Below the pieces are notes generated by a model. It was not told the origin of the DNA. It made no database searches and saw only the letters and a list, made by a program, of their open reading frames with translations. Both the position numbers and the translations under genes were made by a program. Below, in pieces: positions 2,041 through 32,472 of a stretch of 41,879 bases of DNA (position 1 is the stretch's first letter; every line of letters starts with the position of its first letter). The stretch comes from Croceitalea sp. (GTDB lineage Bacteria > Bacteroidota > Bacteroidia > Flavobacteriales > Flavobacteriaceae): assembly GCA_013001145.1 (NCBI GenBank), contig JABDND010000182.1, forward strand, positions 1 through 41,879. The letters are read 5' to 3'.

Positions 2041-2649
2041 ATGGCTTTTACCTTGCCCAAGTTACCTTATGCATATAATGCTCTCGAACCTAATATTGAT
2101 GCACGCACAATGGAAATACACCATACCAAGCATCATAACGGCTATACAACTAAACTAAATGCGGCGATAGCTGGAACTAAACTCGAAAATAAAAGCATTG
2201 AAGATATGATGACCAATCTTGATATGTCAAATGAAGCGGTCAGAAACAATGGCGGTGGCTTTTACAATCACTGTCTTTTTTGGGAGGTTATGTCGCCCAA
2301 TGGCGGTGGCAATCCAACTGGAAATTTGGCCGATGCCATAAATCAAGCATTCGGTTCTTTTGAAAGCTTTAAAGAACAGTTTTCTGCTGCAGCCGGCTCT
2401 CGTTTTGGTTCTGGTTGGGCCTGGCTTTGTGTTCATAAAGGGGGGAAGTTGGAAATTTGTTCCACACCCAATCAAGACAATCCCTTAATGCCCAATACAG
2501 GTTGTGGGGGTTATCCTATCTTGGGATTGGATGTTTGGGAACACGCTTATTATTTGAATTATCAAAATAGGAGGCCTGACTATATATCTGCATTTTTCAA
2601 TGTCATTAATTGGGAAAAGGTGTCTAAATCTTATACAGAAAACATGTAA
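2041..2649 (+). CDS. sod: Superoxide dismutase [Fe/Mn]
   Basis: [35 protein letters not shown]..., [26 protein letters not shown] are hallmark Fe/Mn-SOD motifs. Confidence 0.97.
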
Positions 2650-2724: not shown

Positions 2725-2797
2725 AGAAAAGGGCGGGGAAGTCCCCACCCTTTTCGTCCCAAATCTTACCATAAACTTAACCTACTTATGCTATGGC
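2725..2797 (-). ncRNA. Candidate small RNA unit 1 of a three-copy tandem family
   Basis: Conserved block (rc) GCCATAGCATAAGTAGGTTAAGTTTATGGTAAGATTTGGG followed by hairpin GGGTGGGGACTTCCCCGCCC and TTTTCT. Preceded by TTG-N19-TAATTTAG. Confidence 0.6.
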
Positions 2798-2801
2798 AGG
2801 A

Positions 2802-2809
2802 CTAAATTA
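2802..2809 (-). promoter_or_regulatory. -7-like box TAATTTAG for small RNA unit 1, with TTG at 2829-2831
   Basis: One mismatch to TAnnTTTG, 13 nt from the conserved block; TTG spaced 19 nt upstream. Confidence 0.4.
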
Positions 2810-2907
2810 CTGGTATTGTGGCAAATAACAAAGAATTTTTAAGAATTTTTTGAATTAATAACGGCAACAAAATCAATGGTTTTGATAAAACGTTGGCAGT
2901 CAAACAT

Positions 2908-2977
2908 AAAGAAGGCGGAACATAGTCCGCCTTCTTTCCCCAAATCTTACCATGAACTTAACCTACTTATGCTATGG
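2908..2977 (-). ncRNA. Candidate small RNA unit 2 of a three-copy tandem family
   Basis: Conserved block (rc) CCATAGCATAAGTAGGTTAAGTTCATGGTAAGATTTGGGG, then perfect 9-bp hairpin GAAGGCGGA-CTATGT-TCCGCCTTC and TTTATG. Confidence 0.6.
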
Positions 2978-2982
2978 TTCTC

Positions 2983-2990
2983 CAAATGTA
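2983..2990 (-). promoter_or_regulatory. -7 box TACATTTG for small RNA unit 2
   Basis: Exact TAnnTTTG on the minus strand, 13 nt upstream of the conserved block; -33 region is TTTTC rather than TTG. Confidence 0.45.
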
Positions 2991-3139
2991 TTCTAACCAT
3001 TATGATTGAGAAAAGCTTTTAGACAAAAGCCCCTTAAAATGGTTGAAAGGACCCAAAGAACCTTAAGGATTATAAAGCTTAAAGAAAAGTAGTACACGTA
3101 TTGAAGAAAGATATAATTGACTTTGTCGAATAGCCATAA

Positions 3140-3213
3140 ATAAAAAAGGTGGAGAAGTCTCCACCTTTTTTGCCCCAAATCTTACCATGAACTTAACCTA
3201 CTTATGCTATGGC
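3140..3213 (-). ncRNA. Candidate small RNA unit 3 of a three-copy tandem family
   Basis: Conserved block (rc) GCCATAGCATAAGTAGGTTAAGTTCATGGTAAGATTTGGGG, then hairpin GGTGGAGACTTCTCCACC with TTTTTTATTT. About 100 nt downstream of the PurF-like stop, so it could also be a 3'UTR element. Confidence 0.6.
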
Positions 3214-3218
3214 AAGCC

Positions 3219-3226
3219 CTAATATA
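3219..3226 (-). promoter_or_regulatory. -7-like box TATATTAG for small RNA unit 3, with TTG at 3249-3251
   Basis: One mismatch to TAnnTTTG, 14 nt upstream of the conserved block start (CCATAGC); TTG spaced 22 nt upstream. Confidence 0.35.
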
Positions 3227-3313
3227 ATTCTGTTAAAATACTGGTGCTCAAAAAGACGTTGAATTGTCATATTTGTCGTTGAAATACATTTTGAATAAGA
3301 TAAACTGCACAAT

Positions 3314-5212
3314 CTAATAAGCGCGTTGATTTTTGCCCTCATAAAAATTAATGAATGCCCTGTTCACTACACGGTTTCCACCTGGGGTAGGATAATTGCC
3401 TGTAAAGTACCAATCACCTAAATTATTGGGACAGGCTTGATGTAGGTTTTCAATGGTTTGATAAATTATTTTGACATCCGCACGCAATTCTTTAGGGCTT
3501 AAAAGCGCTGCAATTTTATCAGATAATTGATCGGCCGTAAAAGGGGCGTACAGTTCTTTCACATAATTGACCACTTCGGCATCTTTGGTATTTAATTGTA
3601 GAAGGCACTTATCATAGATTTCTTTGGTAATATGTTCCGTGCCGGCATCTTTATGAAGCGCCAATGCGGCTCTAAAGGCAACAAAATCTTCCAGTTTCGC
3701 CATATCGATGCCATAACAGTCCGGGTAGCGAATTTGTGGAGCAGAGGAAACCACAACAATTTTTTTGGGCGATAGGCGATCGAGCATTCTTAAAATGCTT
3801 TTTTTCAATGTGGTACCTCTTACAATACTGTCGTCAATAATGACCAAATTATCGTTTTCCTTTACCGATCCGTATGATATATCATAAACGTGGGTGACCA
3901 AATCGTCCCTATTACTATCTTGAGTAATAAAGGTCCGCAACTTTGCATCTTTTATGGCCACTTTTTCAATTCTTGGACGTACATCTAATATTTTGTGTAG
4001 CTCTTCCTTGGTAATTGTATTGCCCAATGCCAGAATCTGCTCTTCTTTTTTATTGTTGAGGTAATTCTGAGCCTCTTTAATCATACCAAGAAAAGAGGTT
4101 TCGGCCGTATTGGGTATGTAGGAGAACACGGTATTCAAAATATCGCTGTCTATAGCTTTCAAGATTTCAGGGAAAACCAATTTGCCCAATAGCTTTCGTT
4201 CTTGATAAATTTCTTTATCACTGCCTCGTGAGAAGTATATACGCTCAAAGGAACAGGCTTTACGTTCTGTGGGTTCTAAAATTTGTTTAAACGAGACCGT
4301 GCCATTTTTTTTGACTATGATTGCTTTACCTGGATCCAGCTCTTTTACTTGATCATACTTAACATTAAAAACGGTTTGAATTACGGGTCGCTCTGAAGCC
4401 ACGACCACAATTTCATCATCTTGATAATAATAACTGGGCCTTATACCTGCCGGATCTCGCAACAAAAATGCATCTCCATGGCCCAATAGACCACCCATTG
4501 CATAACCACCATCCCAATTTTTGGCCGCTTTCCTTAACACCTTGGCGACATTGAGCCTTTCGGCAATAAGGGGGGAAGCCTCTCTTTTATTATAGCCTTC
4601 TTTTTTTATTTGCTTGTAAAGCTTGGCAACCGCATCATCCAAAAAGTGTCCAATTTTCTCCATAACCGTAACTGTATCTGCCATCTCTTTGGGATGTTGG
4701 CCCAATTCCACAAGATTGCCGAACAACTCGTCAACATTGGTCATGTTGAAATTACCAGCTACGATGAGATTACGGTGCATCCAATTGTTTTGCCTTAAAA
4801 AAGGATGCACACTTTCAATACTGTTTTTGCCAAAAGTGCCGTAGCGTACGTGGCCCAAAAGTACTTCGCCTATATAAGGAATGTGCTTTTTCTGAAGCTT
4901 TACATTATTGGCATAAGTGGGGTTGCGTGAAATTTCGGTATTGATACGATTGTTGATCTGCCTAAAAATATCTTGTATGGGCTGCTGCTCAATGGAACGA
5001 ACCCTGCTCATGTATCGCTCACCAGGCTCCATATCTAATTTAATACTTGCGAAACCTGCACCATCTTGACCCCTGTTGTGCTGTTTTTCCATCATCAAGT
5101 ACATTTTGTTCACCCCGTAGAACGCAGTGCCATATTTTTCTTGATAATATTCAAGGGGTTTTAACAACCTTATTAAAGATATTCCACATTCATGTTTGAT
5201 GGCGTCACTCAT
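3314..5212 (-). CDS. Amidophosphoribosyltransferase-like protein (long PurF paralog)
   Basis: MSDAIKHECGISL (Ntn Cys after short propeptide), MEKQHNRGQDGAGFA, GHVRYGTFG, and PRTase motif NLVIIDDSIVRGTTLKKSI. ATG at 5212 preferred over the track start at 5221. Confidence 0.9.
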   Translation of the reverse strand: MSDAIKHECGISLIRLLKPLEYYQEKYGTAFYGVNKMYLMMEKQHNRGQDGAGFASIKLDMEPGERYMSRVRSIEQQPIQDIFRQINNRINTEISRNPTYANNVKLQKKHIPYIGEVLLGHVRYGTFGKNSIESVHPFLRQNNWMHRNLIVAGNFNMTNVDELFGNLVELGQHPKEMADTVTVMEKIGHFLDDAVAKLYKQIKKEGYNKREASPLIAERLNVAKVLRKAAKNWDGGYAMGGLLGHGDAFLLRDPAGIRPSYYYQDDEIVVVASERPVIQTVFNVKYDQVKELDPGKAIIVKKNGTVSFKQILEPTERKACSFERIYFSRGSDKEIYQERKLLGKLVFPEILKAIDSDILNTVFSYIPNTAETSFLGMIKEAQNYLNNKKEEQILALGNTITKEELHKILDVRPRIEKVAIKDAKLRTFITQDSNRDDLVTHVYDISYGSVKENDNLVIIDDSIVRGTTLKKSILRMLDRLSPKKIVVVSSAPQIRYPDCYGIDMAKLEDFVAFRAALALHKDAGTEHITKEIYDKCLLQLNTKDAEVVNYVKELYAPFTADQLSDKIAALLSPKELRADVKIIYQTIENLHQACPNNLGDWYFTGNYPTPGGNRVVNRAFINFYEGKNQRAY

Positions 5213-31590: not shown

Positions 31591-32463
31591 ATGCCCACAA
31601 AAAATAAATACTCAAAAATTATAGCGGGAACAATGACCTGGGGAAGTTGGGGCAAAAAGCTTTCGACTACCCAAATGGTTGAACTCATGAACCATTGTCT
31701 TGCTTTGGGCATTTCAACCTTTGATCATGCCGATATATATGGTGATTACGGCAATGATGCTGAATTTGGAAAGGCCTTTGTGAAAAGTGGAATCGATAGA
31801 GCAAAGATTCAATTGATCACCAAATGTGGCATTCAGCTGAAACAGTCACGTAACAATAAAGTAGGCCACTATCAATATGACAGCGCTTATATTATTGAAT
31901 CGGCCGAAGATTCACTCAAAAAATTACACACCGATTACCTTGATCTGTTTTTGTTGCATCGGCCGAGCCCGCTTATGGAGCCCGAAGAAATCGCAAAAGC
32001 CATAGAAACCTTGAAAAGCGATGGAAAGATCATTGATTTTGGTGTTTCCAATTTTACACCCTCACAAATTGCGATGGTCGAAACAAGGGTGCCCGTAGTG
32101 TGCAACCAAGTGGAGTATTCATTGACCCATGTACTGCCCATGTATGACGGCACTTTTGATGATTGCATAACAAAAGGGCGCATGGCAATGGCCTGGAGTC
32201 CTTTGGGGGCTTATTTTAGAGCAGAAAATGACCGGCAGCGACGAATAAAAAAGATGATCAAAGGATTAATGGATAAATATGGTGCCGATGAAAGCCAGCT
32301 GCTTTTGGCTTTTATTTTAAAACATCCTGTTGGTATTTATCCCGTTGTGGGAACTTCAAATAAAAAACGCCTGGCAGACTCTTTTAAGGCCGCCGAAATA
32401 GATTTGGAATTACAAGATTGGTTTTTGCTTTTGGAGGCAAGCCAAGGTGAACCCGTACCATAA
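31591..32463 (+). CDS. Aldo/keto reductase
   Basis: SKIIAGTMTWGSWGKKLS, GISTFDHADIYGDYGND, DYLDLFLLHRPSPLM, GVSNFTPSQI. ATG at 31591 preferred over TTG at 31582. Confidence 0.93.
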   Translation: MPTKNKYSKIIAGTMTWGSWGKKLSTTQMVELMNHCLALGISTFDHADIYGDYGNDAEFGKAFVKSGIDRAKIQLITKCGIQLKQSRNNKVGHYQYDSAYIIESAEDSLKKLHTDYLDLFLLHRPSPLMEPEEIAKAIETLKSDGKIIDFGVSNFTPSQIAMVETRVPVVCNQVEYSLTHVLPMYDGTFDDCITKGRMAMAWSPLGAYFRAENDRQRRIKKMIKGLMDKYGADESQLLLAFILKHPVGIYPVVGTSNKKRLADSFKAAEIDLELQDWFLLLEASQGEPVP

Positions 32464-32472
32464 ACTTATTAT

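Follow-up and report, generated by a model that had tools for sequence, protein, structure and literature searches.

A tandem array of predicted small RNAs beside purF and sodA in Flavobacteriaceae, with complementary start codons in exported-protein genes

The closest described system is FopS of Bacteroides. It has 14 copies, pairs with susC at the start codon, and is antagonised by RbpB (PMC11697453). Its consensus is GUGUUUUUCAUgGUAUUAGAUUUAAGG. Qrr of Vibrio, LhrC of Listeria, and RybB and MicA of enterobacteria are systems that work in a similar way. The RNA described here is not known to be related to them in sequence. The classical chaperones on which sRNAs of this kind rely are absent from Bacteroidota (PMC11697453). 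The Rfp sRNAs of Flavobacterium psychrophilum (Rfp1-89) are conserved flavobacterial sRNAs, and Rfp18 is required for normal protease expression (PMC9723704). Marine polysaccharide turnover is dominated by Flavobacteriaceae, and some members of the family are pathogens of fish. Regulators or targets are known for only a few of their sRNAs.

The window is the whole stretch of DNA analyzed here, 41,879 nucleotides from the draft assembly of a member of Flavobacteriaceae (88% complete, with 2.64 Mb spread over 222 contigs). It contains three ~74-nt units, each with its own Bacteroidota -7 box and its own terminator (Table 1). The 37-nt core ATAGCATAAGTAGGTTAAGTTNATGGTAAGATTTGGG was present in exactly three exact copies on the minus strand (2758-2794, 2939-2975, and 3174-3210), and dinucleotide shuffles of the window gave an expectation of 0. 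The claim of an earlier note, made from the sequence, that three near-identical ~40-nt blocks lie on this strand was upheld. No further copy was found in the rest of the assembly at up to 3 mismatches in a 21-nt core. Each unit contains, in order, the -7 box, 12 to 13 nt, the block [A/G]CCATARC-ATAAGTAGGTTAAGTT[C/T]ATGGTA(A)GATTTGGG, a short A-rich linker, and the terminator. The flanking genes are those that we take to be sodA and purF from our reading of the protein sequences.

Table 1. Coordinates of the array, its predicted elements, and its neighbours in the window
Feature	Position	Strand	Basis or remark
sRNA copy 1 (T-type, sodA side)	2725..2798	minus	R1 covariance model 80.3 bits; fold z -3.82
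sRNA copy 1 layout	2725..2798	minus	predicted 5' hairpin, then UAAGAUUUGGGA linker, then terminator
sRNA copy 2 (C-type, middle)	2907..2979	minus	R1 86 bits; fold z -3.63
sRNA copy 3 (C-type, purF side)	3141..3214	minus	R1 88.7 bits; fold z -3.76
Predicted seed CAUAAGUAGGUU, copy 1	2779..2790	minus	perfect complement AACCTACTTATG at start codons of relatives' exported-protein genes
Predicted seed CAUAAGUAGGUU, copy 2	2960..2971	minus	as for copy 1 seed
Predicted seed CAUAAGUAGGUU, copy 3	3195..3206	minus	as for copy 1 seed
-7 box TAATTTAG, copy 1	2802..2809	minus	sequence; conserved across copies
-7 box TACATTTG, copy 2	2983..2990	minus	sequence; conserved across copies
-7 box TATATTAG, copy 3	3219..3226	minus	sequence; conserved across copies
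Fixed promoter of sodA-side copy, TTTGTTATTTGCCACAATACCAGTAATTTAG	2802..2832	minus	alignments; no LytTR-like repeat pair
LytTR-like direct repeat, copy 2: TTCAACCATT and TTTGTCTAAA, 20 bp apart	3018..3047	minus	TTnRnCnWW regular expression
LytTR-like direct repeat, copy 3: TTTCAACGAC and ATTCAACGTC, 20 bp apart	3255..3284	minus	read from sequence
sodA (superoxide dismutase)	2041..2649	plus	convergent with array; conserved neighbour, synteny by tblastn
purF-like amidophosphoribosyltransferase gene	3314..5212	minus	same strand, upstream of array; conserved neighbour, synteny by tblastn

A pattern scan of genome contigs returned at least 120 stretches, all from Flavobacteriaceae or from less precisely named Bacteroidota records. 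Matches with up to 3 mismatches were found in 29 of the 59 relatives searched, and exact matches occurred in 1 to 6 copies each, mostly clustered. We collected 298 copies with a -7 box and a terminator, 295 of them with the exact core, and aligned 61 copies. The block is conserved over ~33 nt. The R1 covariance model gave 27 matches in a 300-genome sample of the phylum, all in Flavobacteriaceae, where 27 of 31 sampled genomes matched. Either C or T follows GTT, and the T form is the sodA-side copy in many genera. One genus, probably Flavobacterium, has CATTAGTAGG in place of CATAAGTAGG. The order of -7 box, block, and terminator recurs in ~295 copies, at an intergenic site that is itself conserved, and the array is therefore best read as three discrete small RNAs, individually promoted and terminated. 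This supports the three discrete ~70-nt RNAs proposed in the earlier note. The family and its architecture are shown by sequence; transcription is inferred, with no expression data. We found no earlier description of this Flavobacteriaceae-wide sRNA.

Of 105 full-length loci, tblastn placed the array next to purF and/or sodA in 101, with fixed orientation and usually ~115 bp from purF. This synteny indicates a fixed chromosomal locus and not a mobile element. A rival reading takes the repeats for a mobile or recombination element, such as a miniature repeat or integration site, and not RNA genes. The tandem copies, near-identical block, and variable copy number are in its favour. It is nevertheless very unlikely, as the locus is fixed between purF and sodA across Flavobacteriaceae and each copy has a promoter and a terminator whose stem varies in sequence among copies but keeps its pairing. 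One locus (L178, genome G259) contains five tandem units ~242 bp apart, and four of these are almost the same, with promoter and spacer included. It is a recent amplification, as inferred from sequence alone.

Folding gave each copy in the window a hairpin at its 5' end and a second one at the terminator (z = -3.6 to -3.8), and both were predicted in every unit folded. The terminators claimed by the earlier note, a hairpin and T-tract per copy, held by these folds, and two are also perfect inverted repeats. A generic terminator scan of the window did not list the three. The 5' stem-loop that the earlier note drew from the pairing of CCAT(A) with (T)ATGG rests on folding energy only. RNAalifold placed 11 pairs in this hairpin, none changed on both sides. 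The conservation is of sequence, without covariation, and the hairpin is therefore likely but not proved.

The block may instead encode a short conserved peptide (ATGGTAAGATTTGGG...), since every copy has an ATG inside it. This rival is all but excluded. Two sequence classes follow ATGGTA, a longer AGATTTGGG form (~65%) and a GATTTGGGG form one base shorter (~34%), and the 1-nt indel (GGTAAGATTT versus GGTAGATTT) shifts the frame in roughly one copy in three. It rules out a conserved reading frame, and we rejected the coding reading on this ground. No frame is maintained beyond the block, and the ATG sits in the predicted hairpin stem.

The -7 box has the consensus TAYWTTTG over ~294 copies and agrees with the TAHHTTTG reported for F. 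johnsoniae (PMC6847099). It lies 12 to 13 nt ahead of the block. The boxes named in the earlier note are real. The TTG that it saw at 19 and 22 nt in copies 1 and 3 failed as a conserved -33 element: there was no -33 box of note, and TTTG at -23 before the -7 box was present in just 33 of 294 copies. Its view that the DNA between copies is unrelated held in part, as conserved direct repeats lie upstream. The earlier note contains nothing on these repeats, on the synteny with purF/sodA, on the spread of the RNA across the family, on the resemblance of the seed to FopS, or on targets.

Of 249 copies, 105 have a pair of TTnRnCnWW half-sites 18 to 23 bp apart upstream of the -7 box, and the spacing is exactly 20 bp in 91. 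The shuffle expectation was 1.9, with a maximum of 6. The copy 3 pair in the window is a looser match that the strict regular expression missed. In the best flavobacterial repeats, TGCATTTCAT recurs after 20 bp. The sites of LytTR regulators consist of two repeats of 9 to 11 nt with 11 to 13 nt between them, and YpdB of E. coli binds GGCATTTCAT repeats (PMC4847170). The paired half-sites of the array promoters fit this geometry, with a period of 20 bp, and they resemble the YpdB site. At 8 of 10 matches to GGCATTTCAT, one half-site was present in 109 of 292 copies (shuffles, 14.3) and a pair in 9 of 292 (shuffles, 0.05). The repeats are shown by sequence. We infer that a LytTR activator acts on the copies that bear them; its identity, binding, and activation are not shown, and no LytTR gene adjoins the array in the window. 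The sodA-side class contains 43 copies with a nearly invariant promoter, CACAATACCAGTA(A/T)TTTAG, and the repeat pair is present in 0 of 43. The array copies are therefore probably under two controls.

Complements of the RNA were searched for at the start regions of genes in 800 kb of Zobellia uliginosa, which we take to be NZ_FTOB01000001.1. Perfect complements of at least 10 nt were present in 10 of 619 start regions, compared with counts of 2 in mid-gene windows and of 2 with reversed controls (p about 0.05 against dinucleotide shuffles). At 12 nt or more the counts were 4 of 619, 0, and 0. Several of the matches span the start codon with (AA)CCTACTTATG. Three matches gave the idea of T9SS/PorP-SprF targets, which remains only a lead because the 101-genome test indicated lipoproteins and exported proteins generally.

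That family-wide test used one 12-nt pattern, AACCTACTTATGR, chosen after the Zobellia matches were seen, and two permuted controls. The R in it excludes the sRNA genes themselves. It gave 68 matches in 101 family genomes, all classified by one rule. True gene starts numbered 26 by the rule and 28 by inspection (adding L324 and L396). The controls gave 17 matches with 0 starts and 31 matches with 3 starts among 30 loci. The excess of starts had a Fisher p of 6e-5 against both controls (3/47) and 0.003 against the closer one. The pattern leaves out the sites of other segments, TTAACCTA and CCATGAACTT, and the matches do not amount to a complete target list. The excess of complementary start codons is shown; pairing in the cell is inferred.

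Most of the predicted target starts encode lipoproteins or signal-peptide proteins. A crude classifier called 25 of the 28 exported, compared with a 60% background (p 8e-4), with the caveat that ATGA starts favour MK- signal peptides. Those that we take to be lipoproteins, by our reading of the lipobox, are L318, L319, L324, L382, L384, L385, L388, L390, L398, L399, and L415. Other products are the TonB C-terminal protein of L331 and its homologue L409, a DUF5686 protein (L339), and a secreted 516-aa family without a name (L338, L394, and L396). Orthologues recur across genera (L399/L415, L331/L409, L324/L388, L338/L394/L396, and L390/L398), as does a 22-aa sORF (L383/L387/L391). The 516-aa family keeps its site, ACCTACTTATG, in four genera whose flanking intergenic sequence has diverged. 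The site is degraded or lost in more distant genera, the window's genome included. Its bases at -3 and -6 are C, whereas translation in F. johnsoniae favours A there (PMC6847099), and a translation-enhancer explanation is therefore unlikely.

Other target searches gave little. No exact 12-nt target is present in the assembly from which the window comes (88% complete). Duplex energies taken in bulk over every start were only marginally better than shuffles (p 0.07-0.15). SusC start regions were not enriched in the one genome examined, Zobellia (mean -12.65 against a background of -12.62 kcal/mol). A test of seed and target compensation in a Flavobacterium-like genome whose RNA has CAUUAGUAGGUU found neither CTACTAATG nor CTACTTATG start codons in 991 genes. 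The seed pattern at 2 mismatches in 396 genomes of the class gave noise about equal to the control, and exact matches alone were useful.

Several single sites were recorded. L383, L387, and L391 contain, at the AACCTACTTATG site, a conserved 22-aa hydrophobic ORF (MKNIKRIIILVSLVVMVSKIFF) in three genera, and its start region is perfectly complementary to the sRNA loop. L311, L379, and L413 contain apparently homologous membrane-protein genes starting (M/V)KNW..., whose likely start codon is closely preceded by AACCTACTTATG. L330:1510-2208 encodes a LytTR response regulator with a 12-nt complement at its start codon; it may form a feedback loop with the sRNA promoters through their LytTR-like repeats. 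In the window, TACCATAAACTT at 32456-32467 is complementary to the T-type copy over 12 nt and lies shortly before an SDR gene (32473). At the Zobellia counterpart (551747), TACCATAAAC is likewise present. Neither was counted, as the end of the upstream gene may also explain the site.

In our main reading, the locus would encode ~75-nt small RNAs that act in trans and form a tandem family. Transcription of each copy would start from its own sigma-A type promoter and end at its own terminator. Many copies would have the upstream 20-bp-period direct repeat bound by a LytTR-family response regulator, and the sodA-side copy would use its separate, fixed promoter. The loop CAUAAGUAGGUU would pair with the start-codon region of chosen mRNAs, mainly those for lipoproteins and other exported proteins. 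Pairing would block translation initiation and switch off envelope proteins on a signal-dependent cue, and several copies may add dose and speed. We lean toward this reading with a probability of roughly 0.62. Expression, regulator, and repression are inferred, and the sign of the effect is taken by analogy from the FopS precedent and the position of the site over the start codon. The fold predictions place about half of the seed in base pairs (mean unpaired 0.54-0.59), which is a point against this reading.

The RNAs may instead be mainly ligands or sponges for an RNA-binding protein (e.g. RRM-1), with the block as a protein-binding element and the mRNA matches incidental. The ~33-nt conservation of the block exceeds the need of a 12-nt seed, UAAGAUUUGGGG is conserved and predicted to be single-stranded yet is unexplained by the loop targets, and FopS RNAs bind RbpB (PMC11697453). 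We consider this unlikely, as it leaves the excess and recurrence of complementary start codons unexplained.

A further rival holds that the RNAs are FopS orthologues in which a second segment (UUYAUGGUA-AGAUUU-GGG) is the seed at AUGAA start codons and the loop is secondary. The FopS R1/R1' seed GUGUUUUUCAUGGUAUUAGAUUUAAGG and the array RNA have UUCAUGGUA--AGAUUU in common, which aligns with the FopS 5' region, and the rest differs. In Zobellia, a 14-nt match spans the start of lspA. A family of the same order (f4; genomes G038, G053, and G700) has RNAs that resemble both, with 3 to 6 dispersed copies per genome, each with UUUUCAUAGUAAGAUUUUGGGUUAG and a terminator. This rival also appears unlikely. 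The FopS model (RF04319) gave 20.2 bits, below the gathering score of 56, no own-genome match was found at E<=1, and susC starts were not enriched in Zobellia. None of 40 relatives exceeded the cut-off, nor did any match in the FopS genome scans. At the gathering score, Rfam cmscan matched no family to the array RNA. STnc40, sraA, and others at E<=10 scored mostly on the terminator and were rejected. The Flavo-1 motif, the first comparison named in the earlier note, had no match at either level.

The f4 loci (L229-L240) contain FopS-like sRNAs below the Rfam threshold, with AGUAGUUAAGU upstream in two copies. Judging by sequence only, we infer that they are intermediate between FopS and the flavobacterial unit. 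Another family of the same order (f7) has a single sub-threshold FopS match of 43.9 bits (L198:1501-1569, genome G054). Common descent of FopS and the array RNA is plausible but remains only a possibility, as the common segment is short. A bolder, tentative reading is that the multicopy anti-start-codon sRNAs of Flavobacteriaceae and Bacteroidaceae belong to a single ancient superfamily, bridged by f4. In Flavobacteriaceae, this superfamily would have become a LytTR-driven tandem array repressing a lipoprotein and export regulon. If true, this would be a family-wide sRNA regulon outside Bacteroides.

Under the main reading, most genera of Flavobacteriaceae would have a conserved sRNA, for which LytTR two-component control is the predicted input. 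The predicted targets, with their exact pairing sites, form a short list. Post-transcriptional control of the envelope in the family becomes directly testable, and a single origin of Bacteroidota sRNA seeds becomes a testable question.

The array RNA is unlike Rfp18, which has at least three stem-loops, and Rfp11, which has an ECF-type promoter (PMC9723704). An Rfp number may already denote its F. psychrophilum copy. It resembles Qrr and LhrC in its several near-identical copies, and these and RybB/MicA in its proposed start-region pairing and envelope-protein targets. Its control appears LytTR-like, unlike the sigma-54 or sigma-E control of Qrr/RybB-type sRNAs. Its closest likeness is to FopS/GibS of Bacteroides (RF04319; PMC11697453). 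Both are multicopy RNAs of ~70 nt with a conserved 5' segment and a terminator, both contain UUCAUGGUA..AGAUUU, and pairing at start codons of surface-protein mRNAs is proposed for both. A single-stranded 5' segment ahead of a terminator hairpin is characteristic of FopS. The array RNA has the terminator, and its 5' segment is predicted to form a hairpin, without covariation. The array RNA also has an extra 5' block, which holds a second seed and this hairpin, and has GGGG in place of the FopS GGUUAAUAAAA. It is far under the Rfam cut-off for FopS, and susC starts are not enriched. The 14 FopS genes are dispersed, and the flavobacterial copies stand in tandem at one locus.
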